Assembly (NCBI RefSeq): GCF_009903625.1
Contig: NZ_CP047569.1
Span: 1,210,501 to 1,274,500, forward strand
Source of the DNA: Microbulbifer sp. ALW1
GTDB lineage: Bacteria; Pseudomonadota; Gammaproteobacteria; Pseudomonadales; Cellvibrionaceae
Reading direction: 5' to 3'
DNA: 64,000 bases
Shown here: one piece after another, positions 4,945 through 21,360 of the stretch
Position numbering within the stretch: the stretch's first letter is position 1
How the letters are laid out: each line of letters opens with the position of its first letter
The notes under the pieces: model-generated
What the model was told of the DNA's origin: nothing
The model's database searches: none
Seen by the model: only the letters and a program-made list of their open reading frames with translations
Translations under genes and position numbers: made by a program

Positions 4945-5016
4945 GTATTTTCCTTCACTTCGTCTTCGCTCTAAATTATGCCTGGAAAGGGTGGTCGCAA
5001 CGACTTCTAGAAATTT

Positions 5017-5490
5017 TTAGTTGGTCTCAGATGTTGCGGTTGGTTTGACGACTTCTACTACTGTATTGGCCAGTTTGTCATGCCATCCCTGCTTTTTTTC
5101 ATCCCATGCAACCCACAGCAACCCCAATCCGAGCGGGATGGTGGAAATGAAATAGCCGATATAGCGAACGACGTACTGTTGGAGGGACGGCTTGCCACCA
5201 GTTTTGGCATCGACAATTCTGGCCGCAATGGCCATTTTTCCAGGGGTGGCCTGTTTGTATGCCCAGAAGGCAACTATGGCAATGAATGGAAATATCCAGT
5301 TAATGACGACGTCCGCAGTGCCCAGGAACAGCTGCTCGCTTTCGAGATATGTCCAGCCATAAATCAGAATCAACGGCGGCAGGGTGATAACCATCAGTAT
5401 CAGGGTGTCGATGATCGAGGCTCCAACACGTGGCCAGAATCCGGCGTAATTGAGTGTGTTTTCTGAGTGCGGTTGGCCCGTGCTAGTCAT
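5017..5490 (-). CDS. RDD family membrane protein
   Basis: A 157-residue inner-membrane protein of the RDD family. The diagnostic N-terminal segment is YAGFWPRVGASIIDTLIL, in which RVGASIID occupies the position of the family's R-x3-D-D signature. It is followed by about three membrane helices and the conserved TPGKMAIAARIVDAKTGGKPS and KKQGWHDKLANTVVV-like segments. RDD proteins are poorly characterised; some act in ion exchange. AAGGACGAAGA precedes the ATG. Confidence 0.85.
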   Translation of the reverse strand: MTSTGQPHSENTLNYAGFWPRVGASIIDTLILMVITLPPLILIYGWTYLESEQLFLGTADVVINWIFPFIAIVAFWAYKQATPGKMAIAARIVDAKTGGKPSLQQYVVRYIGYFISTIPLGLGLLWVAWDEKKQGWHDKLANTVVEVVKPTATSETN

Positions 5491-5641
5491 TCTTCGTCCT
5501 TGTTCGTTTGGTGACTTACTTCCTAGTGGGAATTACATCACATATATTTGGCATGTTTTATATCCCGGAATAATGTTCGCTGACAAGTCACCAGCCTTAA
5601 ACGAGGTAGTAATCAGCTGTTCGGTGACCTTGGGGCCGAAC

Positions 5642-6022
5642 TTATAGCTCTTGCTCCTTGTCATTGCGCGACGAAACTAAATGAATGATGTTCGACGGGC
5701 TAGAGATCCAAAACGCTTTAAACCCCTCAGGTAGTGGTTCAATTTCATCTCTACGATGGCAGCCCTGCTCTTTGAGATGCTCAGCGGCTCTACCAATATC
5801 ACTAGCGACGATCTCCAGCCATATTTCCGATTGACTCAAGCCGGGCACGGAGTCCAGCCAAAGCACTTTACCGCCAAACTCAAACTTGGGCGTGTCGTTC
5901 ACACCGTTTCCCGTAAGCTCTTTGAATCGCAAAATGTTTCGATAAAAATTGACGGTGCTTTCATGCTCATGTGCCGGGATCTTCATCGCAATGTTTTTTC
6001 CAGGCTCGAATTCCAGATCCAT
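5642..6022 (-). CDS. VOC superfamily protein
   Basis: A 126-residue glyoxalase/dioxygenase-fold protein. It contains STVNFYRNILRFKELTGNG, a hallmark VOC helix-strand start, and ends with GFKAFWISSPSNIIHLVSS, where the usual D-P-x-G-N loop is SPSNI. Metal-ligand positions are not obvious, so a binding role is as likely as catalysis. AAGGA precedes the ATG. Gaps on both sides exceed 150 bp, so it is probably transcribed alone. Confidence 0.75.
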   Translation of the reverse strand: MDLEFEPGKNIAMKIPAHEHESTVNFYRNILRFKELTGNGVNDTPKFEFGGKVLWLDSVPGLSQSEIWLEIVASDIGRAAEHLKEQGCHRRDEIEPLPEGFKAFWISSPSNIIHLVSSRNDKEQEL

Positions 6023-6213
6023 GATTCAATCCTTAGTCCGTGTATTTAACGTCGCGTAAAAATTGAAAGTGAGCTTACCGGAATTTTACAGGTGTCGCTT
6101 CCTGCTTGGTTTCATAGGCTCTCAGCGAAACGCTAAGCAGAAACGGCAGTAAAAGTTGTACGGCGGTGCCACCTGTTTGCGGCAGCACCAGTTGAGCAAG
6201 GTCCCGCAGTGCT

Positions 6214-9473: not shown

Positions 9474-10217
9474 ATGAAGAAACTGTTTTCGATCGTTGTG
9501 GCGCTACTGGCGCTATCGTCCGCAAGCCTCGCCCTGGCCGCGCCGCGGGTACTGATCGTGGCCACCAGCCACGAGCAGATGGGGGATACCGACGAGAAAA
9601 CCGGCCTGTGGCTGTCGGAACTGACCCACCCCTACCACGAGCTCAAAAAGGCGGGCTTTGAGGTGGAAATCGCCAGCATCAAGGGCGGTGCGGTACCGGT
9701 GGATGCGCGCAGCATGGCGGATGACGATGCGGTGAACTTTGCATTCCTCGCCAGCCCGCAAACCCGCAGCCTGCTGGACAACACTCGTAAGCTCGCGGAC
9801 GTCAGCCCCAAGCGCTATCAGGCCATCCTGTTCGCCGGTGGCCACGGTACCGTGTGGGACTTCCCCAAGAGCCCGGCGGTCAATAGCGTCGCCTCCGCCA
9901 TCTACGCCGACGGCGGTTATGTGGCGGCCCTGTGCCACGGCCCGGCCGCGCTGCTGAATGTCACCGGCCAAGACGGCAAGCCGATCATTACCGGCAAGAA
10001 GGTCGCCGGTTTCAGCAACGAGGAAGAAAAGGCGGTAGGCCTGGCCGACGTAGTGCCTTACCTGCTGCAGGACGAACTGACCGCACTCGGCGCCAACTAC
10101 CTGGAAGGCAAAGCGTGGGAAAGCTTTGTGGTACAGGACGGCCGTATCATCACCGGCCAGAACCCGCAGTCCGCGGCGGAACTGGGCCGGGTACTGGCCA
10201 AGGCACTGAACCAGTAA
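9474..10217 (+). CDS. Exported DJ-1/PfpI (Hsp31-like) family protein
   Basis: A 247-residue member of the class I glutamine-amidotransferase-like DJ-1/PfpI family. The nucleophile elbow is ALCHGPA with Cys154 and His155, and the FAGGHGTVWDFP segment (120-131) forms the oxyanion side, as in Hsp31-type glyoxalases and chaperones. Unlike most relatives it has a signal peptide (residues 1-22), so it should act in the periplasm. GGAGACC precedes the ATG. The divergent LysR gene is its probable regulator. A decayed relative lies at 14394-14555. Confidence 0.88.
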   Translation: MKKLFSIVVALLALSSASLALAAPRVLIVATSHEQMGDTDEKTGLWLSELTHPYHELKKAGFEVEIASIKGGAVPVDARSMADDDAVNFAFLASPQTRSLLDNTRKLADVSPKRYQAILFAGGHGTVWDFPKSPAVNSVASAIYADGGYVAALCHGPAALLNVTGQDGKPIITGKKVAGFSNEEEKAVGLADVVPYLLQDELTALGANYLEGKAWESFVVQDGRIITGQNPQSAAELGRVLAKALNQ

Positions 10218-10265
10218 ACGCTGCTAACTGGGCGCTACTAACCAAGCGCTACCAGGTAAACGCAA

Positions 10266-10317
10266 AGAGCCCGGTGGCTGCCCGTGTTGTTGAGTACACA
10301 GGTGGTCACCGGGCTCT
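10266..10317. repeat. Inverted repeat between convergent genes
   Basis: Arms AGAGCCCGGTG and CACCGGGCTCT (11 bp, perfect) enclose a 30-nt loop between the PfpI gene and the convergent DUF1993 gene. It could fold in either transcript. There is no T-run, so it is not a classical terminator. Confidence 0.55.
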
Positions 10318-10354
10318 GCTGTTTCTGCGGGCGGTAATCTCTTACCGAGGCCGG

Positions 10355-10870
10355 TTAGGCCTCTTTCTGGATATGCGGGCGAAGGAACGTCATATAGTCC
10401 GCCTTGCCAATGGGCACGCCCATGTTGCGCAGCATGGCGTAGGTGGTGGTGATGTGGAAGTACAGGTTCGGGATCAGGTAATCGTTCACGTACTGGTGCC
10501 CCGGTATCTCACAAAAGGCACCGGGACCTAGTCCCAGGCGCTTCATCTCGTCCAGCTTGCTGTCGTCCACGTCGATGCCTTCAACCATGGTGCGGGTCTC
10601 ACTGATCAGCGCGCGCGCCTCGGCCAGTGTCGCCAGCTCCGGCTTGTGGTTATCTACCGGCTTGCCGGCACACCACTGCGAGAAGCCACGGGGCTGGTTG
10701 CACATAAACACAATCTGCGCACCAAACGGCAACATATCTTCCGCCAGGCGCTCCTGCATCAGAGCATCGGTATCGGTGACGTGTTTCTCGCCAACGTCCA
10801 GAAGGTGGTCGAGTACGTCCAGCCGTGATGTAAAAATGCGTTTGATCTCGGTAATTTGCTCGTTGGCCAT
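10355..10870 (-). CDS. DUF1993 family protein
   Basis: A 171-residue protein whose body (RLDVLDHLLDVGEKHV, ERLAEDMLPFGAQIVF, GLGPGAFCEIPGHQYVNDYLIPN) matches the all-helical DUF1993 family, which is related to the DinB/YfiT four-helix fold. GHQYVNDYLIPNLYFHITTTYAMLR supplies two conserved histidines, possible metal ligands. The biochemical role is undefined in the family. GAGAGAGC precedes the ATG. The protein is probably cytosolic. Confidence 0.85.
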   Translation of the reverse strand: MANEQITEIKRIFTSRLDVLDHLLDVGEKHVTDTDALMQERLAEDMLPFGAQIVFMCNQPRGFSQWCAGKPVDNHKPELATLAEARALISETRTMVEGIDVDDSKLDEMKRLGLGPGAFCEIPGHQYVNDYLIPNLYFHITTTYAMLRNMGVPIGKADYMTFLRPHIQKEA

Positions 10871-11094
10871 AATGCTCTCTCGTTGGGGTGTAGCAACGCT
10901 CTTTGCGCGCGCTATTTGGCGAAAACATTAGCGTATCCTGCGGGAGTGGAGGAGAAAAAGCAGAGTTAATTATACGTACGTAGCAAAATTCCGTTAGTTG
11001 ATACGGGCGTACATTGTTTTATGCTTGAGGTTGAGGTGGTATTAATTATTATTCGCTGAAGTTTCTAATTATATGTAGCTAAAAGGACTAGTGA

Positions 11095-11613
11095 ATGTTA
11101 GCCACCCACAGGGAAGCGGAAGAGCGCTATACGGTTATTCGGCAGGCCGTGATTTATGAACTCAATCGAGAACTTCAATCTGGGTGGCAGCCAGGGCTCA
11201 GGGCGACGTTGATTGATAGTCACACGCTCACTGAATCGGAACTTTGGAAGGGCTTACCGAGAAGAAAAGTCGACTGGGACTGGAAGCGAGGATATCAGTC
11301 ATTTAAGTTTCGATATCCGAAACGGTTTGAGCTGGCATTGTGGGACAATCACCAGTTAGCCAGCTTAAGCTTGGGGCGCCCAACCTATAATGGTGGTAGC
11401 CTGCGGCTTGATTTTCTAGAAGCAAGTCCAGAAAAGCGCAAGGGACTGAAGGTATTTGAGCCAACGTTCCTCGCGATGGTCAGTTATGCTACGGCGCTGG
11501 GAGCTAATGAACTCAGGATCATGAATCCGATAAATGCAGAGGTAAGGTCTTACTATGAAAAGTTTGGCTTTACCTATGTTGCGGAATCAGATTACTTGAA
11601 TATTCGATTGTGA
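11095..11613 (+). CDS. GNAT-like N-acetyltransferase-fold protein
   Basis: A 172-residue protein. The second half has a GNAT-like order: strand SLRLDFLEASP, a segment where EKRKGLKVFEP could replace the acetyl-CoA loop, a helix with TFLAMVSYATALGANELRIMNP, and the terminal RSYYEKFGFTYV typical of GNAT domains. The usual Q/R-x-x-G-x-G/A loop is not clear, so activity is uncertain. AAAAGGA precedes the ATG. Two tiny ORFs follow closely on the same strand and suggest one transcript. The region is AT-richer than the flanks. Confidence 0.65.
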   Translation: MLATHREAEERYTVIRQAVIYELNRELQSGWQPGLRATLIDSHTLTESELWKGLPRRKVDWDWKRGYQSFKFRYPKRFELALWDNHQLASLSLGRPTYNGGSLRLDFLEASPEKRKGLKVFEPTFLAMVSYATALGANELRIMNPINAEVRSYYEKFGFTYVAESDYLNIRL

Positions 11614-11622
11614 TTGAGCCTT

Positions 11623-11838
11623 ATGAGTAAAGATAAAGTTAAGCACATTAGCGATAAGCAGCGAGAGCGCGACTCCGGAGATATCTCGGAGGCCATTCGA
11701 CGTGCGCGGCAACACATTCGCAATATCGACTCGGAAGAGCTCGATGAGCCTGATGGCCTTGCTTCAGGTGATATGAAGAAGTTTCTCGACAACCCGGACC
11801 AGTACGAAAAGAACACTGATGATGAGCAAGGAAAATAA
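11623..11838 (+). CDS. Small acidic hypothetical protein
   Basis: A 71-residue, highly charged protein, mostly helical in appearance (ISEAIRRARQHIRNIDSEEL), with no membrane segment or cysteine. The ATG at 11623 lies 9 bp after the GNAT stop, so the two are probably co-transcribed; a TTG at 11614 is a possible earlier start. It overlaps the next ORF by 17 bp. No family is recognised. Confidence 0.5.
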   Translation: MSKDKVKHISDKQRERDSGDISEAIRRARQHIRNIDSEELDEPDGLASGDMKKFLDNPDQYEKNTDDEQGK

Positions 11839-11965
11839 CAAACCGAAAGAAAAGTTGGATAAGCAAGTCCAGCCGATGCCCGGTGAGGTAGATCCAAAGA
11901 ACGTGAAAGCCCATGTTTTTCTCAATATGCAGAAAGTAAAAAGTAAGCTGCTTAATAAGCGTTGA
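11822..11965 (+). CDS. Very small basic hypothetical ORF
   Basis: A 47-residue frame from ATG at 11822 to TGA at 11963-11965 (MSKENNKPKEKLDKQVQP, then PGEVDPKNVKAHVFLN), lysine-rich and soluble. It overlaps the end of the preceding small gene in another frame, which suggests translational coupling. Both small proteins start with MSK followed by charged residues. It is short and unsupported by any family, so it may be a chance frame. Confidence 0.4.
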   Translation: MSKENNKPKEKLDKQVQPMPGEVDPKNVKAHVFLNMQKVKSKLLNKR

Positions 11966-12001
11966 GCGCTCCGTCGTCAAAAAGCCGGCAGCAGAAGTGC
12001 A

Positions 12002-13072
12002 CTACTGCCAGATACCCGCATCCCGCAAGGTTTGCGTTAACCTGTCGGCAGTCTCAAACCGCGGCGCCTTTGCCGCATTGCTCAGCAGCACCAAACCGTT
12101 GCGCTCCTGTGGATAACTGATCAACAGTGACTTGTACCCGCGCACACTACCCGGATGGCGCGCGATAAACCGGCCGTCTTTCTCATACACCTGCCACGCC
12201 AGTGCAACTTGGATATCGCCCCAGGGTGTGTCTGCGCGCGGCTCCAGCATCTGTGTATAACTGGCATCGCTCAAAATCCTGTCATCGCGATTGAGCGTGG
12301 CACTGAGCCACAATCCCAGGTCTTGCGCGCTGGAGACCAGCCCCTCACTGGGATAAAAGCTGGGTTCGAATGGGCGCTGTTGTGTCGGTGTCAGCACCTT
12401 GCCCTGATAGGTCGGTAGCGCAGACGGTGCGACTCCCCGATGGCCATCGTAATAGCCGCTGTGCTTCATCGAGATGGGCGCCAGTATATGCCGTTGTACA
12501 TACTGCTCGAATGGCATCCCGGAGACCGCAGTGACAATCGCACCCAGCAGGTTAAAGCCGGTATCGCTGTATTCGAAGGCGTGAGCGGCCGTCTCTGCTG
12601 GTGCCTTGGATGCGATCAATGCCAGATAGTCGGCCTGCGAGCGCTGTTGTTCGCTGTCCACTGGTCGCACCGCATCCTGGATACCAGAGGTGTGGGTAAG
12701 CAGCTGGGCGATGGTGATGGGGGAGTTTTTGAATGCGGGAAGGTATTTTGATATTGGGTCAGACAGCTCCAGCTTTCCGGTTTCTGCCAGCTGCACGATG
12801 GACTGCGCGGTAAACAACTTGGAAATGGAGGCGATGCGAAATGTGGTCTCGCCCGTTACCGCCACCTGCTGCGCTTCGTCGATGTAACCTGAGCCGCCCA
12901 CATAGGCCAGCTCGCCGGAAGTGATCACTGCGACGGCGAGCGCGGGAGTCTGGAATTCAGAGCGTATCTCCGAAAGCGTCTGGTTCAGAGCCTCGCGGGC
13001 AGTATTCTCAAAGGCCAGCGCCGGCGATGACAGCAGCGCGAGGAACAACAGAAAAGTTCTGCTGGGATACAA
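12002..13072 (-). CDS. Serine hydrolase of the beta-lactamase/penicillin-binding fold
   Basis: A 356-residue exported protein with a signal peptide (1-20). It has the class C beta-lactamase-like catalytic order: S82-I-S-K85, Y168-S-D170 in place of Y-x-N, and a C-terminal RHPGSVRGYKS segment in the KTG/HGG position. It is most likely a periplasmic esterase or peptidase rather than a true beta-lactamase. The start codon is TTG, 6 nt after GGAG, and no ATG fits the signal peptide. The gene is single, between accessory genes. Confidence 0.85.
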   Translation of the reverse strand: MYPSRTFLLFLALLSSPALAFENTAREALNQTLSEIRSEFQTPALAVAVITSGELAYVGGSGYIDEAQQVAVTGETTFRIASISKLFTAQSIVQLAETGKLELSDPISKYLPAFKNSPITIAQLLTHTSGIQDAVRPVDSEQQRSQADYLALIASKAPAETAAHAFEYSDTGFNLLGAIVTAVSGMPFEQYVQRHILAPISMKHSGYYDGHRGVAPSALPTYQGKVLTPTQQRPFEPSFYPSEGLVSSAQDLGLWLSATLNRDDRILSDASYTQMLEPRADTPWGDIQVALAWQVYEKDGRFIARHPGSVRGYKSLLISYPQERNGLVLLSNAAKAPRFETADRLTQTLRDAGIWQ

Positions 13073-13127
13073 GTGATTCTCCGAAAGTTAAACTGGCCTG
13101 ATTGAGCTGATTTTATTGTCGTCAAGT

Positions 13128-13784
13128 CTATAAGGTAGCCAAGTGAAAATTTGTTCTTTGAGTCAGGGAGGCAGTTCCCGAGTTGTTTCCTACCTGTACT
13201 TTGGGGCGGAATTCATCCGTAGCTACCGAGCTGGCGCCACCTTGAATTAAGGCATCGCTCAACTCACTTCGGGGAATCTTGGGATTATTACTTTTACTGA
13301 ATACGTAAAAATTCATTTGGCAGGAAACGCCAAGAATGGATGCAGCTTTTCTGATTGCCTCGCAAGTGCTGCTATATAGTTCCTTGTTGGCCCTGATTTT
13401 TACTTCGTCGTTTTTAGTGTCGATGTTTTCTGCGTTAAGGTTCTTGGCATAAATGTTCGCGAGCAGTACTTCCGGTGATACATCGTAGAAATTGGCCGCA
13501 AATTTTACAGAAGAAGCGACGTCATTTGCATTTGTGGCATCAACTCCAAATGTCCAGGTTTCATTGTCTATAAGGGCAGCTTCTTTGGATACGCTGGCAG
13601 AGCGATCTTCAAAGGGTGACATGGCTACGGCGTAGTTTCTTGTTTTCCAGACCGATAGGCTGTGTAGTGTGGTGCGCAGCACATAATTTCTGGTAACGCT
13701 CTGATTTCCAAAAACCAGACTCACATCGGTTTTGAAAGCATACTTATCTTCAGCCACAGAAGTGGCACCGTTCTGACCGATCAT
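13128..13784 (-). CDS. Hypothetical protein, second gene of a two-gene unit
   Basis: A soluble 218-residue protein without a signal peptide or membrane helix. The N-terminal half looks beta-rich (YAFKTDVSLVFGNQSVTRNYVL); the middle contains helix-forming segments such as VKFAANFYDVSPEVLLANIYAKNL. I recognise no domain. AAGGGA precedes the ATG. It lies 24 bp downstream of the next gene and was probably transcribed with it. Its codons are AT-richer than the housekeeping genes. Confidence 0.55.
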   Translation of the reverse strand: MIGQNGATSVAEDKYAFKTDVSLVFGNQSVTRNYVLRTTLHSLSVWKTRNYAVAMSPFEDRSASVSKEAALIDNETWTFGVDATNANDVASSVKFAANFYDVSPEVLLANIYAKNLNAENIDTKNDEVKIRANKELYSSTCEAIRKAASILGVSCQMNFYVFSKSNNPKIPRSELSDALIQGGASSVATDEFRPKVQVGNNSGTASLTQRTNFHLATL

Positions 13785-13808
13785 CTAAAAATCCCTTTAA
13801 ATTAGTCT

Positions 13809-14189
13809 TTAATCCAAGTTAGAAATTATGTGCTTGTATTGAGTCTCATCTTCTATTTCTTTAGATCGAAAACCGCTAAATACAATTTCATTAATCGATG
13901 CAGATTCTTTCGCGTGAGCGATAACGTCATTACCGCTGTCGCCGATGACTTCCCACTGTTTTTGATCAAAACGGATTATTTTGGATACATCGATAAGTTC
14001 AAATTTCTTGTCGAGAAGTCCATTTCGAACTTTTCCAAGGATTTCCTCAAATGTGTTCAGTAGATCACCTGAATCTGAAGTTGGTACAAATACCTCGCTA
14101 AAGTAGAACTCGCAGTCGTCAAAATCGACATCGCAGCCGGGAAGGGGATGGCATTTTGTAAATACAATCCATATATCAGTTGAAGTCAT
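13809..14189 (-). CDS. Hypothetical protein, first gene of a two-gene unit
   Basis: A 126-residue acidic, soluble protein containing LPGCDVDFDDCEFYFSEVF and a helical end. No family is recognised. The frame also has an ATG at 14201, but that start lacks a ribosome-binding site, while the ATG at 14189 follows GGAACG. It heads a probable two-gene transcript with 13128-13784, next to the NTPase gene but separated from it by about 650 bp. Confidence 0.5.
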   Translation of the reverse strand: MTSTDIWIVFTKCHPLPGCDVDFDDCEFYFSEVFVPTSDSGDLLNTFEEILGKVRNGLLDKKFELIDVSKIIRFDQKQWEVIGDSGNDVIAHAKESASINEIVFSGFRSKEIEDETQYKHIISNLD

Positions 14190-14393
14190 TTTTCGTTCCA
14201 TCTAAAAAATCTGAAAAGAAGTGGAGGTGAGTAGCTAATTTATACGAAAAAATGGTTCGGTTGTTCCAGTTTTGGATTCGGGTATTTTTTACTCACTATG
14301 ATTAGGGACGTTTATATCACAAAGTAATTCGCAGTCCAGTAGGGAACTGGATTGAATGCAGGTAACCGTGGTATCGCGTGAGACTTTCCCTAG

Positions 14394-14555
14394 AGCCTGG
14401 CGGTTAGCAGCATTGCCTGCGCCAGCTTCACCGAAGACTATTTCGCGTCACTGTGCCATGGCCCGGCGGCGATGCTGAATGTCACCGGCAAAATGACAAG
14501 CAGATTACTGCCGGCAAAAAATCGCGGGTTTCAGTAGTGAGGAAGTGAATAGGGT
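14394..14555 (+). pseudogene. Decayed fragment of a DJ-1/PfpI-like gene
   Basis: From 14394 the plus strand reads SLAVSSIACASFTEDYFASL, then CHGPAAMLNVTG. This matches residues 133-165 of the PfpI-like protein at 9474 (SPAVNSVASAIYADGGYVAA, then LCHGPAALLNVTG). After that point the frame is broken by small indels, though the DNA still resembles the gene up to about 14555. There is no start, no 5' half and no 3' end. It is a relic of a paralogue or a transferred copy. Confidence 0.8.
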
Positions 14556-14775
14556 CCAGATCAACTGTTTTGTGCACATTGATGTCTGCTGATTTTTTGC
14601 ATCATTTAACCTGAGGCCATTCGGAACTCATTTTCCTAAAGGTCAGGACTTAATTTTTTGAAAAAATATGCGATTCCAATGAGGTGCTGAATGTTGATTT
14701 GAACCCAATTTACGAGGTGATCAGCTCGCGAGCGCTATATCTTTATGACAAATGGTAAACCCTATCTTTTGGTGA

Positions 14776-14822
14776 GATAAAAATAGTGGGGAGGGCCAAA
14801 TTGTAGGTCCTCCCTCCCCCCC
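14776..14822 (-). terminator. Likely intrinsic terminator of the phosphoesterase-NTPase gene
   Basis: On the minus strand GGGGAGGG and CCCTCCCC pair across a 16-nt loop. ACTATTTTTATC follows. It lies 26-72 bp after the stop of the large NTPase gene. An A/T run and a run of seven G residues sit just before the stem. Confidence 0.55.
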
Positions 14823-14847
14823 AAAAAAAATATATATAAGGTTGAAG

Positions 14848-17800
14848 CTAAGCGTCGATCGTTGATCTGGATCGATTTATTAGGCGTGTTTTCTTACTTT
14901 TAACGTCAATAGATCTAGCATTTGACATTGTGATATTCGCGAGGTCACACAGCTTCTGCTTATCTAGGTCCGTGGTGTGAAACATGTGTAAATGATATGC
15001 AACTAAAGTCTGTAGGATTTTAAAGGAAAAGGTGTTAGCCCGTAGATCTCTTGATAACTTTTTTAATTGATCGATTGGAAGTCTTCCGGGGCGCACTAAT
15101 TCTGTGGCAGCCTCGAATAGTCTATAAGATATGGAGCCATCATCTCTAACAACAGCAGATATATCTTCGCGTAGACGATCTGAAGTTACGAATAGAGCAG
15201 TTTTCGCAATTAATCCAGTACAGATCATGCCAACGACTTCGAAAGCGGCTTTTTGAGATAGTCTGCTTAACTCGTCTATATCATCTATTTTCTTGACTTT
15301 ATCACTTATTGCACGCTCAATGTCCTTAACTAGGCTCTCGGGATCTCTAAGAGTTTCCTCTAGAACGAAACGTAATAGACGGAGCGGTCCTCCGAAAACT
15401 TCCTTCAAATATTCTGATTTCTTGGATCTTTCAATGGAGCCGTAGTAGTTTTTTGTTATTTGACCTAAGATTTCAGCAGTTTTAATAAGGAGATTGAATT
15501 TCTTGGATATATCGATTGCTTCGTTAGCATCTGAATCGTCGCTATCTTCAGTGTTGTCCCCATCATCCTCTATAGCGTCGGCAGCTTTTCGTTGTTCAAC
15601 CTGGGATCTTTCTACATCTATTTCTTCAATAACAAGCTCTGCAGAACTTGCAACTAAAGCATTTAGTGATTCCACATCATTGTCTAGATCTAACTCCGCA
15701 ACGTCAGCAAAACATTTTTGCAGCGCGAATGAAACTTGATCCGTGAGCCAAGAATCATTTACATGGTGAGATAGAAAAAGAATGATTCCAGAATTTTCAC
15801 GTTTATTCAGGTTCTCACACAACCCGCCTACTAGGCCTTTTATCTGCTCGTCGTGTAATTTTTGCGCTAAATATTTCCCCACGAAAAAATAGTATACATA
15901 TGGGTAGGGGAAGGTGTAGAAACCATCGGAAGCGGACAATATTTTTGCGCGAGTAAGAAGTTTTAATCGGTTATCAAAGTCAACGGATGTATATTTTTCC
16001 GAGAAAATTTTGTTAAACTCTCTTAATTTATTCGTATATATTTCTTTTGTTTCTTCACACCTATAAAACCAGGCTAAGTTAGAAAGATAGTTGAAAATTT
16101 CGTTTAGCTGGTCATTTCTTACGCCGCACTCTTTCAGGCTTTTCGTGATAAGGTATTGGTAATAATAAGCGAATCCGGCATTTTCTAGCTCTCCTTCTTG
16201 CTGATTTTCACAGCTTTGGAGCAGTATAAGTATGTATATTGGTCTGGGCGGTACTAGGTTTTTCCCTATAACTGTGTTGATTAGTGTTTCTACGCTGTGG
16301 ACCTTTTTGTCGAGTTCTTGCTTTGTTTCAATATTCCCACACATGCACCAGTTTTTAATTAGCTCGTGACGAAGCTGATATCCAAAATTCTTTATTTCAT
16401 ATGTATCGTATTCGGAAAAAGTTTTAGATAGTGACTTGTCGATTAATTCGTTGAGCTCGATTTCTCCGGATCCGGATATGATGACAGAGTCAAACTTTGC
16501 TTCAATAAATTTTATTATTTTATCTTTGTTCTTTATCGATCCGGGTAGTCGATCAAACCCATCGATAAAAGCGATTTTTTTTCCTATTTCAGAAGTTGAG
16601 TATGTATTTGGGTCTTTGTATTGTTTTTCGATTTTTCGTTTTAGCGTGTTGCTGAGTTCATGCTGTGAGCTTGATTTGAAATCAAAGCTATCGAAGTAAA
16701 CAGGTAGTAGTCCAGACCCATGTGCATCAAGATACATTTTTTTCAATAGGAATGATTTGCCTGACTTATCTTCTCCCAAGACTAGAATTTTAGTATTTTT
16801 ATTAGGTTCTAATTTGATTTGGCTGGCTGATATAGTTCTCCGTTCCACTGACTGTTTGTCTTCTAGTTCGGGATATACGAAGACATCTTTAGCTTCTATT
16901 ATTTTCTTTTCGGGATGTGAAAAATTGCCGCCCGCATCCATGAATTCTTCAATTATACTTTCATGTAGGGCTGTTTTTTTTAATTCGGAGTTTTCTGATA
17001 AGGGAAGTATTGGGAAGGACTTTTCACTTTCTACGATAGCTTTCTCACCAGAAAATACATATCTACTTTCACTCGCGGATGCGTTCGTTAAGTCGAACTT
17101 TATGCAGGAAAAACCATCGCTTACACCTGGTTCGCAAGATTGAAGTGCCGAAGATTCGAAATAAAGACTCTTTCCGTGATCAGACTCGTCAATAAGCCCA
17201 GAAGAGGTGTTGTGTTCATGTCCAGAAAAAACAGCATCGAAGTCTCTTCTCAACGATTTTCTAAGGGGATGATATGATTGCTGCCCATACCAATTAAGTG
17301 GGTGGTGGATTACTGCGATTCTTAGGTCTGAATCGCAATTTTTCACGTGGGAAAACTTTTCAATAGGGAAGGTTAGTTCGCCCTGCTTTTCTTTTAATTT
17401 TGACATCCATGCTGCATTAATGACGGATATTTTTACAGATTTGCCGGCGACTGGTATCAGATAGTCAACCCATAATTTATGTTCGAATATTGGCTTTAGT
17501 GTAGATATTTTGTCTCGAAAAGCAAAGAAATCTGATTGCACCTCGGTGCATTTCTCTATTATCGATTCATCATTAGCTTGTTCTGGATTGGACGCCAGTG
17601 AGTCAATAACTATATTTCGAATTGAACAAGCTTTAGAAAAATCACAGTCATGATTTCCGGGGGCAACGACTATGTGCGTTGCTATTTTATATTTTTCTAA
17701 TATTTCATTTTTTATTGTGCTAAGCAGTGTTGATGCTAATTCATACTCTGCCTTTTTTCCGCTAAATGCGATATCGCCTGAAACAATAATCAGGCAGCAA

Positions 17801-17916
17801 TCTATATCTCCAGTAAGGTTGCTCAAAGAGCTGTAAATTTCCTTTGTGTTTACATGAGCCTGATTAAAGGAAGATTTTATATGTATGTCGCTAAGATGAA
17901 GTACGCAGAAAGTCAT
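14848..17916 (-). CDS. Calcineurin-like metallophosphoesterase fused to NACHT/STAND-like NTPase
   Basis: A 1022-residue protein. Residues 1-290 are a metallophosphoesterase with all five motifs: D10-I-H12, GD 47-48, GNHD 87-90, HH 204-205 and GHEH 232-235, so it should bind two metals. Residues about 375-690 are a P-loop NTPase: Walker A GEDKSGKS (381-388), Walker B FIDGFDRL (450-457), then NFGYQLRHELIKNW, PPRPIYILILLQ and YPYVYYFFVGKYLA, in the order seen in NACHT modules. The remaining 330 residues are helical, with an acidic stretch (782-797). Such effector-NTPase-sensor layouts occur in bacterial NLR-like antiviral proteins. The target and activity are unknown. The gene is AT-rich, transcribed alone, and has AGG 8 nt before its ATG. 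Confidence 0.85.
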   Translation of the reverse strand: MTFCVLHLSDIHIKSSFNQAHVNTKEIYSSLSNLTGDIDCCLIIVSGDIAFSGKKAEYELASTLLSTIKNEILEKYKIATHIVVAPGNHDCDFSKACSIRNIVIDSLASNPEQANDESIIEKCTEVQSDFFAFRDKISTLKPIFEHKLWVDYLIPVAGKSVKISVINAAWMSKLKEKQGELTFPIEKFSHVKNCDSDLRIAVIHHPLNWYGQQSYHPLRKSLRRDFDAVFSGHEHNTSSGLIDESDHGKSLYFESSALQSCEPGVSDGFSCIKFDLTNASASESRYVFSGEKAIVESEKSFPILPLSENSELKKTALHESIIEEFMDAGGNFSHPEKKIIEAKDVFVYPELEDKQSVERRTISASQIKLEPNKNTKILVLGEDKSGKSFLLKKMYLDAHGSGLLPVYFDSFDFKSSSQHELSNTLKRKIEKQYKDPNTYSTSEIGKKIAFIDGFDRLPGSIKNKDKIIKFIEAKFDSVIISGSGEIELNELIDKSLSKTFSEYDTYEIKNFGYQLRHELIKNWCMCGNIETKQELDKKVHSVETLINTVIGKNLVPPRPIYILILLQSCENQQEGELENAGFAYYYQYLITKSLKECGVRNDQLNEIFNYLSNLAWFYRCEETKEIYTNKLREFNKIFSEKYTSVDFDNRLKLLTRAKILSASDGFYTFPYPYVYYFFVGKYLAQKLHDEQIKGLVGGLCENLNKRENSGIILFLSHHVNDSWLTDQVSFALQKCFADVAELDLDNDVESLNALVASSAELVIEEIDVERSQVEQRKAADAIEDDGDNTEDSDDSDANEAIDISKKFNLLIKTAEILGQITKNYYGSIERSKKSEYLKEVFGGPLRLLRFVLEETLRDPESLVKDIERAISDKVKKIDDIDELSRLSQKAAFEVVGMICTGLIAKTALFVTSDRLREDISAVVRDDGSISYRLFEAATELVRPGRLPIDQLKKLSRDLRANTFSFKILQTLVAYHLHMFHTTDLDKQKLCDLANITMSNARSIDVKSKKTRLINRSRSTIDA

Positions 17917-18423
17917 ATTAATGCCTGTTTATAATTTTCTATGTAATGTCTTTAAATTCGCCAATTTCAGTGTAAAAAAATTATGATTTAACCGAGGTCG
18001 GTTGCCGGGGCTGGCTTCTCATTGTTTATTTTTTTGTGGCGTAACAAGTTTTGCCATTCAATGGTGATACATTACCGGCCGTGATGCGCGTCCCCTTTAT
18101 ATTGTGACGTACTTTATAACATGCTGGTTTTCAACTGACGAGACGATCTAATCTGTTGTGGTTTTCGAAGTTTGTACTCACTAACTTTGGGCGCATACTT
18201 GTCGCCTATCGGTGAGAAGTTTCGTGGAATAGATTTTTTCTTTAGCTTGATAAGTGTTCGCTAGCGTGTATCTGGCATAGCATTTTGGTATTTCAGGGAG
18301 GCATTTCCTAAAGCCGCATCCCCACCATTCATACCCAATTTAACCTCACGCCACCGACACCCCGTCGCCCAACCCCACCACTCCTGCTATCTTCCTCTGC
18401 ATAACTATGCAAAGGATCGCCCC
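17917..18423. other. Intergenic stretch at the right edge of the AT-rich region
   Basis: No gene is supported in these 507 bp. Base composition shifts from AT-rich to GC-rich at about 18300, next to the M16 peptidase gene, and may mark the edge of transferred DNA. The upstream region of the NTPase gene (17917-17950) has a TATAAA-like element. Confidence 0.5.
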
Positions 18424-21360
18424 ATGCCCCGCAACCTTACCGCCTCCCTGGCGCTATTGACCGCACTCTCCATTCCGGCCCTCGGCCTGTTCGGCTGCGA
18501 CCGCTCCAGTACCCAAACCGAGCCGAAGCCCCAGACTGAGGTGGCATCTAAAGCCTCGGATCAGAAAGAAACCAAGCCTGAATTCGCCATCGAGTATGAG
18601 CAGTTCCAGCTGGATAACGGCCTCAATGTGCTGTTCCACATCGATCGCTCCGACCCGGTAGTGGCGGTGTCGCTCACCGCCCATGTGGGTTCGGCGCGGG
18701 AGAAAGAAGGCCGCACCGGCTTTGCCCACCTGTTCGAGCACCTGCTGTTCCTGGAGTCCGAGAACCTGGGCAAGGGTGGATTGGATGCGATGAGTGCGCG
18801 TATTGGCGGTTCCGGGGCCAATGGTTCCACGTCCCGCGATGTCACCAATTACTACCAGACAGTGCCCAAGGATGCGCTGGAGAAGATGCTGTGGGCAGAG
18901 GCCGATAAGCTGGGCTGGTTTATCAATACGGTGACCGATCCGGTGCTGGCGAAAGAAAAGCAGGTGGTAAAGAACGAGAAGCGCCAGAGTGTGGATAACC
19001 GCCCCTACGGCCACAGCCAGTACGTAATCGATCGCAATCTCTACCCGGAGGGCCACCCCTACAGCTGGCAGGTGATTGGCTCGCTGGAGGATCTGGACAA
19101 CGCCACCCTGGACGATGTGAAGACCTTCTTCCGCCGCTGGTATGTGCCCAACAACGTGACTCTTGTGGTGGCCGGGGATTTTGATCCGGAAGAGGCCAAG
19201 GCGCTGGTGAAAAAGTATTTCGGTGAGATCCCCGCGGGGGAGGCCATCGAGCGCGCACCCAAGCAGCCGATCACTTTGAAGGAAACCAAGCGGCTCTATT
19301 ACGAGGACAACTTCGCCCGTCAGCCCCAGCTGAGCATGGCCTGGCCCACGGTGCCGCGTTACAGCGAAGACAGTTATCCACTGTCGGTGCTGACGGAATA
19401 CCTGTCCAGTGGCAAGCGCGCGCCTCTGTACCGGGTGCTGGTGGAAGACGAACAGCTCACCGCGCATGTGGCCATGGGCGCGTACGAATCCGAACTGGCG
19501 GGGCAGGTTCAACTGGAGGTGCAGGCATTCACCGGTGGTCATCTGGACGCGGTCTTCGCGGGCATCCAGAAGGGCTTTGCCCTGTTTGAAAAAGAGGGCA
19601 TCGGCGAGGAAGACCTGGAGCGTATCAAGGCGGGGCAGGAAGTGGCGTTCTACAACAGCCTCTCCAGCGTACTGGGCAAGGGTTTCCAGCTGGCCCAGTA
19701 CCAGATTTACGCGAATGACCCGGGGTATGTGACGGAGGATATCGAGCGGCTGCTGGCGGTCACCGCGGAGGATGTGCAGCGGGTGTACGACAAGTACATC
19801 AAGGGCAAGCCCTACGTGGCCACCAGCTTTGTGCCCCGCGGTGAAAAGGCGCTGGCGCTGTCCGGCTCCACGGCCGCGCAGGTGGTGGAAGAGAAAGTAG
19901 TGGAGGGCGCGGAAGCGCAGTTTGATGCCTCCGCCAGCGCGGCGTACGAGAAAACCCCATCAAGCTTCGACCGCGCCAAGGAGCCGGCCTACGGCGACCC
20001 GGCGGAAACCTCGGTGCCGGATGTGTGGCAGGGCAAGCTGGACAACGGGATCGAAGTTTTCGGTATCGAAAACAGTGAGGTGCCGGTTGTGACCTTCAGC
20101 CTGGTGATCGATGGCGGCATGCTGCAGGAGAGTATCGATAAAACCGGTGTGGCCAACCTCACCGCCATGCTGATGGAGCGCGGTACCAAAAACCGCACCC
20201 CGGAAGAGCTGGAAACCGCGATTCAGAAACTGGGTGCCAGTATTAATGTGTCTGCGGGGCAGGATGCGTTCCGCTTCAGTGTGACCACCCTGGCGCGCAA
20301 CTTTGATCAGGTGTTCGCGCTGTTGCAGGAAATGCTGCTGGAGCCGCGCTGGGACGAGAAAGAACTGGTGCTGGCGAAGAAGAGCGTTACCAGCCAGATC
20401 AAACGCGCGGAAGCCGAGCCCAATGCCATTGCCGGCAAGACCTTTGCGCGCTTGCTGCACGGCACAGACAGTATCCGCGGTCACAGCGGCCTGGGTACCG
20501 AAGCCTCCGTTGCGGCCATCACCATGGATGACCTCAAGGCCTTTTACAAAAACACCCTGTCGCCCTCGGTAGCCAGCGCGCATGTAGTGGGCGATATCCC
20601 GCAGGCGGAGTTTATGGCCGCCGCAGCGCAACTGGCCAAGCAGTGGCCCGCCAAGCCAGTGAAAATTCCCGAGCCGGAATCCAGGCCCGCCAAGCCCGGT
20701 ATCTATTTTGTCGATGTGCCGGGTTCCAAGCAGTCGGTATTGCGTATCGGCCGCCTGGCAATGCCGGCGGTGTCGGAAGACTATTATCCGGCGGTGTTCA
20801 CCAATTACATTCTTGGCGGTGGTGGCTTCGCCTCGCGCCTGATGCAGCAGCTGCGGGAAGGCAAGGGCTACACCTATGGCATCGGTTCCAGTGTGTCTGG
20901 TGGCAAGACCGAGGGCCGCTTCTCGATCGGCAGCGGCGTGCGCGCGAATGTCACCGCGGAATCGGTGCAACTGATCCACGACATTCTCAAGGAGTACGCC
21001 CCCACCTACACTGAGGCCGACCTGGAAAACTCGCGCTCTTATCTGGTGCGCGCCAATACCCGCGCGTTTGAAACCGCGGGCGCCAAACTCGGCCTGCTGG
21101 AGAACATGAGTGAATACGGCTGGCCTGCGGACTATGTGCGCGAGCGCGAGGCGACCGCCAAGGCCATGACGATTCCCCGGGTGCAGAAGATTGCCGAGAC
21201 CTATATGCAGCCGGATTCCATGATCTGGCTGGTGGCGGGCGATCGCGCTAGCCAGTTCGAGCGGCTTGAGAAACTTGGTGTGGGTGACGTCACTCTGGTG
21301 GAGGATCAGCAGTCGTCACAGTCGGACGAACCTGCTGCCGAAGCTCTTGGCGAGGACTGA
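18424..21360 (+). CDS. M16 family zinc metallopeptidase, lipoprotein
   Basis: A 978-residue pitrilysin-type protease with two M16 halves. The first has the inverted zinc motif H102-x-x-E-H106, with E185 as probable third ligand (VVKNEKRQ). The second half (about 530-950) lacks the motif, as is usual for the non-catalytic half. The N-terminus is a lipoprotein signal ending LFGC (Cys25), with Asp at +2, which in E. coli favours retention in the inner membrane. It probably degrades peptides in the periplasm. AAGGATC precedes the ATG. Confidence 0.92.
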   Translation: MPRNLTASLALLTALSIPALGLFGCDRSSTQTEPKPQTEVASKASDQKETKPEFAIEYEQFQLDNGLNVLFHIDRSDPVVAVSLTAHVGSAREKEGRTGFAHLFEHLLFLESENLGKGGLDAMSARIGGSGANGSTSRDVTNYYQTVPKDALEKMLWAEADKLGWFINTVTDPVLAKEKQVVKNEKRQSVDNRPYGHSQYVIDRNLYPEGHPYSWQVIGSLEDLDNATLDDVKTFFRRWYVPNNVTLVVAGDFDPEEAKALVKKYFGEIPAGEAIERAPKQPITLKETKRLYYEDNFARQPQLSMAWPTVPRYSEDSYPLSVLTEYLSSGKRAPLYRVLVEDEQLTAHVAMGAYESELAGQVQLEVQAFTGGHLDAVFAGIQKGFALFEKEGIGEEDLERIKAGQEVAFYNSLSSVLGKGFQLAQYQIYANDPGYVTEDIERLLAVTAEDVQRVYDKYIKGKPYVATSFVPRGEKALALSGSTAAQVVEEKVVEGAEAQFDASASAAYEKTPSSFDRAKEPAYGDPAETSVPDVWQGKLDNGIEVFGIENSEVPVVTFSLVIDGGMLQESIDKTGVANLTAMLMERGTKNRTPEELETAIQKLGASINVSAGQDAFRFSVTTLARNFDQVFALLQEMLLEPRWDEKELVLAKKSVTSQIKRAEAEPNAIAGKTFARLLHGTDSIRGHSGLGTEASVAAITMDDLKAFYKNTLSPSVASAHVVGDIPQAEFMAAAAQLAKQWPAKPVKIPEPESRPAKPGIYFVDVPGSKQSVLRIGRLAMPAVSEDYYPAVFTNYILGGGGFASRLMQQLREGKGYTYGIGSSVSGGKTEGRFSIGSGVRANVTAESVQLIHDILKEYAPTYTEADLENSRSYLVRANTRAFETAGAKLGLLENMSEYGWPADYVREREATAKAMTIPRVQKIAETYMQPDSMIWLVAGDRASQFERLEKLGVGDVTLVEDQQSSQSDEPAAEALGED

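Follow-up and report, generated by a model that had tools for sequence, protein, structure and literature searches.

A probable DS-8-family anti-phage receptor at a defence hotspot of Microbulbifer, and TIR-bearing relatives of its NTPase core

A single gene in a stretch of 64,000 nucleotides from Microbulbifer sp. ALW1 (hereafter the window; contig NZ_CP047569.1, positions 1,210,501 to 1,274,500, from a genome assembled as one contig of 4.68 Mb) encodes a calcineurin-like metallophosphoesterase (MPP) joined to a NACHT-type STAND NTPase, and its product is probably a DS-8-family single-protein anti-phage immune receptor. An earlier sequence-only reading had proposed this gene as a candidate antiviral NLR, and the proposal is now supported by a score above the DS-8 family cut-off, an NLR-like predicted fold, relatives that carry a TIR domain, defence genes beside homologues and a location in a hotspot. 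The interpretation as a defence protein fits because the TIR relatives, the defence neighbours of homologues and the genus hotspot all suit a layout of effector, switch and sensor.

Family membership is most directly seen in the match to NCBIfam NF053861 ('DS8_antiphage'), which amounts to 1055.1 bits where the curated cut-off is 790 and covers profile positions 1-994 of 994 with residues 7-995. Both PADLOC models of PDC-S60 (PDLC05050 and PDLC05051) also match, with E-values of 3.7e-83 over residues 314-1008 and 2.2e-37 over residues 5-688. DS-8 was presented with DefensePredictor (Science 2026) as a single-protein anti-phage system made up of a metallophosphatase and NACHT (PMC13092281). In E. 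coli MG1655, with DS-8 supplied on a plasmid, defence was ablated by substitution of either one of two MPP residues predicted to be catalytic and also of a residue likely to be critical for the NACHT ATPase (PMC13092281). The sequence-only reading could not say whether the exact MPP-NACHT fusion had been reported; it is not new, having been described and tested as DS-8 in the available text of that paper. In the literature searched, no further paper on DS-8 was recognised and none naming PDC-S60 was found.

Two E. coli entries named 'anti-phage protein' by NCBI reach 967 and 954 bits against NF053861, and the window protein aligns with them collinearly over residues 41-995 (30% identity, 52% positives). 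These entries were reached through L106, an intermediate homologue whose family, chosen by a thrC match, is presumed to be Enterobacteriaceae; direct DNA comparison to E. coli with the window gene, L003, L020 (part of the gene only), L008 and L007 yielded no match. One of the E. coli copies, L118, sits in an island flanked by recombinase genes. The window protein resembles DS-8 in being one protein with an N-terminal MPP and a NACHT NTPase that passes the cut-off along the whole profile, with Pfam Metallophos and nSTAND_NTPase4 above their cut-offs and with intact catalytic MPP and Walker residues; it differs in sharing about 30% identity with the E. coli members found and in residing in another host and another island.

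Each of the five metal motifs noted earlier in the MPP domain is present and conserved across 31 aligned homologues (Table 1), and Pfam Metallophos matches residues 5-236 with 40.1 bits (cut-off 21.5). Judged by sequence and predicted fold, the two-metal phosphoesterase active site is intact, and so is a NACHT-type P-loop switch with its Walker motifs. The Walker A and Walker B assignments of the sequence-only reading were confirmed by K387 and D452, both invariant in the same homologues and both correctly named as sites for substitution; the suggested pair H87/H90 was misnumbered, these residues being G87 and D90, and should read H89/D90. The NACHT-like segments downstream stood in part, since Pfam nSTAND_NTPase4 supplies a STAND profile match and, in a structure comparison with the PDB, the predicted fold of residues 310-1022 matches NACHT modules of NLRs, while Pfam NACHT stays at 15.3 bits, under its cut-off of 26.7. 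A sequence-profile search of the PDB returned MPP and P-loop matches, all of them weak, which made the comparison of folds necessary. The C-terminal region, mostly helical in both structure models as anticipated, is presumed to be the sensor.

Table 1. Coordinates of the gene, its motifs and its surroundings in the window
Feature	Position	Strand	Remarks
DS-8-family gene	14848..17916	-	1022 aa; MPP, NACHT-type STAND NTPase and helical C-terminus; from ORF list, NF053861, PADLOC PDC-S60
Calcineurin-like MPP domain, effector position	16993..17916	-	residues about 1-308
Metal motif I, D10-x-H12	17881..17889	-	conservation of 90% or higher in 31 homologues; present in 10 compared MPP sequences
Metal motif II, G47-D48	17773..17778	-	invariant in 31 homologues
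Metal motif III, G87-N88-H89-D90	17647..17658	-	invariant in 31 homologues
Metal motif IV, H204 (H205)	17302..17307	-	in 31 homologues, conservation is complete for H204 and at least 90% for H205
Metal motif V, G232-H233-E234-H235	17212..17223	-	invariant in 31 homologues
Walker A, GEDKSGKS	16753..16776	-	residues 381-388; G386 and K387 invariant in 31 homologues
Walker B region	16546..16578	-	residues 447-457; D452 invariant in MPP and TIR forms
Pfam nSTAND_NTPase4 segment	15880..16038	-	residues 627-679; 48.3 bits, cut-off 27
Helical C-terminal region, presumed sensor	14851..15849	-	residues about 690-1022; common to TIR forms
Low-GC insert holding the gene	10900..18400	.	GC about 0.44; edges approximate; from composition and comparison with 19 congeners
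DJ-1-like gene, insert border	9474-10217		border common to 7 of 19 congeners
M16 peptidase gene, insert border	18424-21360		common border of the hotspot

The N-terminal domain of this architecture is exchangeable. Five plasmid records returned by a plasmid search hold TIR-annotated proteins with similarity confined to residues 326-987, and a set of eight TIR proteins of 841-869 residues (L022, L023, L040, L042, L044, L045, L107, L108) was drawn from whole genomes plus one Lactococcus plasmid. All eight have an N-terminal TIR_2 domain above the Pfam cut-off, and the remainder of each aligns with DS-8; L022, for instance, aligns to NF053861 positions 289-994. In a tree of the core the eight TIR rows are parted from the 27 MPP rows by one change (support 96/92, and 99% of 200 bootstrap trees), with the E. 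coli DS-8s and the window protein together on the MPP side; the tree includes some long branches, L111 being the longest. By this tree a single swap accounts for the exchange, as far as the sample shows. Since the same core bears TIR where DS-8 bears MPP, the MPP occupies the effector position. Considered as DS-8 members, the TIR forms were rejected for scores of 366-570 bits against NF053861 (five scanned), and they are regarded as relatives instead. The TIR-NTPase4 proteins L022, L023 and L040 have the NTPase core and the C-terminus in common with the window protein and differ in carrying TIR for MPP and in their place across the core tree.

Part of this N-terminal variety is already held in a library, as the two PDC-S60 models have unlike N-termini. 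The window protein matches both, although PDC-S60 is a candidate label and PDLC05050 has another N-terminal domain; it is this other domain, model positions 2-304, that L127 matches. The N-terminus of L127, which we take to resemble DUF4062, has no Pfam match and was given no weight.

In the uninfected cell the receptor would be autoinhibited and nucleotide-bound. Recognition of a phage product by the helical C-terminal part would be followed by nucleotide exchange and oligomerisation of the NACHT modules, and this clustering would turn on the N-terminal MPP. The activated MPP may attack a nucleotide-type substrate, be it a pool needed by phage or cell or nucleic acid, by hydrolysis of phosphodiester or pyrophosphate bonds, and phage growth would be halted, probably at the cost of the cell. 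The effector role of the MPP is supported because relatives keep the switch and the C-terminus while TIR replaces the MPP.

In the available text of the DefensePredictor paper, the authors do not know the substrate of the DS-8 MPP, and their wording suggests a signal-degrading enzyme (PMC13092281). On one rival reading the same receptor would carry an SMPDL3A-like MPP hydrolysing a cyclic nucleotide or another nucleotide signal, and defence would come about by signal removal and not by destruction of a bulk pool. TIR domains form a class known for NAD+ consumption in defence (PMC13174449), and their exchange with the MPP makes, in our view, a destructive effector more likely than a signal-degrading enzyme; we regard the latter as unlikely. 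Just as unlikely, in our estimate, is that the MPP of the same receptor acts, once activated, as an Mre11/SbcD-like nuclease on DNA or RNA of the phage or the host. To our knowledge, SMPDL3A, Rv0805 and the purple acid phosphatases have no NTPase switch, and their substrates differ. On the function of YydB nothing useful was found in the literature searched.

Searches of other genomes with the DS-8 model turned up related MPP domains in several further multidomain proteins. By Pfam, the MPP precedes SIR2_2 in L024, nSTAND6 in L121 and L125, NACHT and HEAT repeats in L126 and an HSP90-like ATPase in L124, while L122 has a related MPP and no second Pfam domain. L111 is a further MPP-NTPase4 protein, its NTPase4 match lying slightly under the cut-off. 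It perhaps represents a distinct subfamily, being 857 residues long with a shorter C-terminus, placed on a very long branch of the core tree, and matched by PADLOC PDC-S60 at 7e-86. The eight metal-ligand positions are retained in the 10 MPP sequences compared, at 15-30% identity to the window MPP. A PADLOC model of a CBASS effector, PDLC00736, matches the window MPP over residues 1-238 (E 4.4e-19), and the C-terminal part of this model, positions 378-531, matches a SAVED effector (E 4.1e-7). The E. coli protein L118 has no match to PDLC00736 at E<=1e-3, which counts against a link between this model and the DS-8 MPP. It may tentatively be proposed, at somewhat less than even chances, that the DS-8 MPP is a mobile executioner domain which sits on many unrelated switches, swaps with TIR and, on activation, destroys a shared metabolite of nucleotide or dinucleotide type. 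The candidate switches, as read from the domain content of these proteins, would be NTPase4/NACHT, nSTAND6, NACHT-HEAT, the SIR2 fusions and the HSP90-like ATPase, beside the CBASS effector of PDLC00736. In the portions of the literature searched, we found no description of the MPP/TIR exchange, of the wider use of the MPP or of the Microbulbifer hotspot discussed below.

The DS-8 family is rare in the genomes searched. Full-length DS-8 is found in two of 48 congeners, the source genome counted, and a third congener holds the core only. The second full-length copy (L128, in genome G660) is 31% identical to the first and lies on a contig different from that of its M16 peptidase gene, which suggests that the two copies in the genus are separate acquisitions. 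Matches of any kind, several of them partial, occur in 6 of 144 genomes of the family and 9 of 293 of the order, and the NF053861 cut-off is passed in two of 369 class-wide genomes (source included) and one of 395 genomes of the family of L106. Matches to L106 itself were found in at least seven of 5426 E. coli genomes, a lower bound with 8-11% of the query matched. A protein search returned 1310 homologues at E<=1e-3, full-length ones included, the nearest other homologue among the 120 matches listed being 88% identical. The phage records searched for an encoded relative gave none.

As the sequence-only reading had suggested checking, defence genes do lie near homologues. A homologue on a Paenisporosarcina plasmid has restriction-modification (R-M), Pycsar and Hachiman genes nearby, and 88 open reading frames (ORFs) around 11 homologues include members of Shango, CBASS, type I R-M and BrxHI-like families at E<=1e-10 (among the 25 of 223 matching families listed; no control set). 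Since MPP and STAND domains are generally known also from non-defence proteins, a housekeeping STAND regulator or a metabolic phosphoesterase without a role in defence was considered. It was rejected as barely credible on the patchy occurrence described above, the low guanine-plus-cytosine content (GC) of the gene, its location in a hotspot and the DS-8 family experiment (PMC13092281). Vertical inheritance with a conserved neighbourhood, which would favour this explanation, was not seen in the congener, family and order genomes searched.

The gene lies in a low-GC insert beside an M16 peptidase gene, and this locus is a defence hotspot of Microbulbifer where related species hold other defence genes. 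Of the 47 other congeners, 24 have the M16 gene at an identity of at least 75%, and 19 of these 24 loci were read (L086-L104). They carry unlike genes upstream of the M16 gene, and within the stretch read all except L093 have at least one called ORF with a GC of 0.44 or less. ORFs were called by a longest-ORF rule, by which an antisense frame over the M16 gene was picked in L089, and 36 insert ORFs from 17 loci were chosen by eye for length and low GC. PADLOC was run on 30 of them from 14 loci, and other defence families were matched at E<=1e-10 in nine of these loci: AbiU (L087), Lamassu (L089), a SIR2/pAgo-like protein (L098), a SIR2-type protein (L092), a CBASS cyclase with SAVED nuclease and E1-E2 (L100), PDC-M55C (L101), PDC-S31 (L095), PDC-M34A/B (L096) and a type IV restriction enzyme (L102). 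As a control, PADLOC was run on ten long proteins encoded in other parts of the window, a small set unmatched for GC, and gave no match at E<=1e-3.

The gene itself begins with ATG and is uninterrupted. The sequence-only reading had called it AT-rich and solitary, which agrees with a GC of 0.38 against 0.564 for the whole window and with distances of 507 bases to the M16 gene and 646 bases to the next downstream ORF. Its supposed own terminator was not borne out: a scan of both strands gave 5 candidate sites against 3.9 +/- 2.0 in shuffled sequence, which is not above chance, and the single site on the strand of the gene has a stem of 5 pairs, 336 bases beyond the stop. Promoter-like sites around the gene were no more frequent than chance either. 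These counts, and a partly decayed surrounding region with a DJ-1-like fragment holding two stops at 14352-14519, would suit a defence gene that has decayed or lost its activity and persists as a passenger of the hotspot; with the 1022-codon frame open and the catalytic positions retained, we consider this very improbable.

Other known systems are more distant from the window protein. In Avs and bNACHT proteins, a NACHT/STAND switch is flanked by an effector at the N-terminus and by a further part at the C-terminus. The window protein shares this order and the NLR fold match, and differs in a Pfam NACHT score below the cut-off; its PADLOC matches at E<=1 include no Avs or bNACHT model. DS-9 (NF053862) has a related MPP, matched with 44.5 bits over residues 4-100, and is a two-gene system with a HAD phosphatase (PMC13092281). 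Membership in DS-9 was rejected, the score being far under the cut-off of 420 bits and Pfam HAD having no match in seven neighbouring proteins. CBASS membership was likewise rejected, as PADLOC found no cyclase and no match of any other kind in the five neighbours at 9474-14201 (ORF 10355-10870 left out).

Several points weigh against the assignment of the window protein as a DS-8 immune receptor and should be set beside this evidence. We infer phage defence by this copy from the DS-8 family, protection having been shown for DS-8 of E. coli; identity to the E. coli proteins is no more than 30%, and the E. coli proteins compared here may differ from the accession tested by the DS-8 authors. The oligomerisation, sensing and effector order outlined above are taken over from other NLR-like proteins and may differ here. 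The NLR fold matches have root-mean-square deviations of 7.5-12.6 A (first 31 matches listed), indicating that subdomain placement differs, and the top Z of 13.8 is barely over the warning level of the tool for helical models. The five TIR forms scanned, part of the set from which the effector position is argued, fall under the DS-8 cut-off of 790 bits. As to the hotspot, PADLOC covered 14 of the 19 loci read, the matches in four of these 14 (L088, L090, L099, L104) were weak and L091 gave none, and the limits of the control are those given above.

Some observations were made on the neighbouring genes. The closest named relative of the DJ-1-like protein of the window is from Microbulbifer sp. 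Q7. The degraded DJ-1-like fragment lies 329-496 bases past the end of the DS-8-family gene; a similar short remnant is found in G665, and in congener G690 the DJ-1-like gene is broken into two frames (L092, 2368-3110). A pair of small genes at 13128-13784 and 13809-14201, with no Pfam match above cut-off, recurs at the hotspot in L101 at 4998-6066 (71% and 62% identity); the PDC-M55C homologue lies about 1 kb away. The product of 12002-13072 belongs to the beta-lactamase family (PF00144), but is probably another serine hydrolase and not a class C beta-lactamase, because the best class C model reaches 98 bits against a cut-off of 415.

Here, sequence alone was enough for a reader to single out a protein of a genuine NLR-like immune family, and DS-8 now has a place in a defence hotspot of Microbulbifer, a marine genus. 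To what was known of the family we add a natural exchange of MPP and TIR on one NACHT-like core and the occurrence of related MPPs in several other multidomain proteins. The exchange and the wider use of the MPP make the question of its substrate in DS-8 approachable by chimeras and metabolite assays. If the MPP is such a mobile executioner domain, it would be a general effector class beside TIR, SIR2 and nucleases, and not a signal-degrading enzyme. The M16-side hotspot is, moreover, a place to seek further defence systems.

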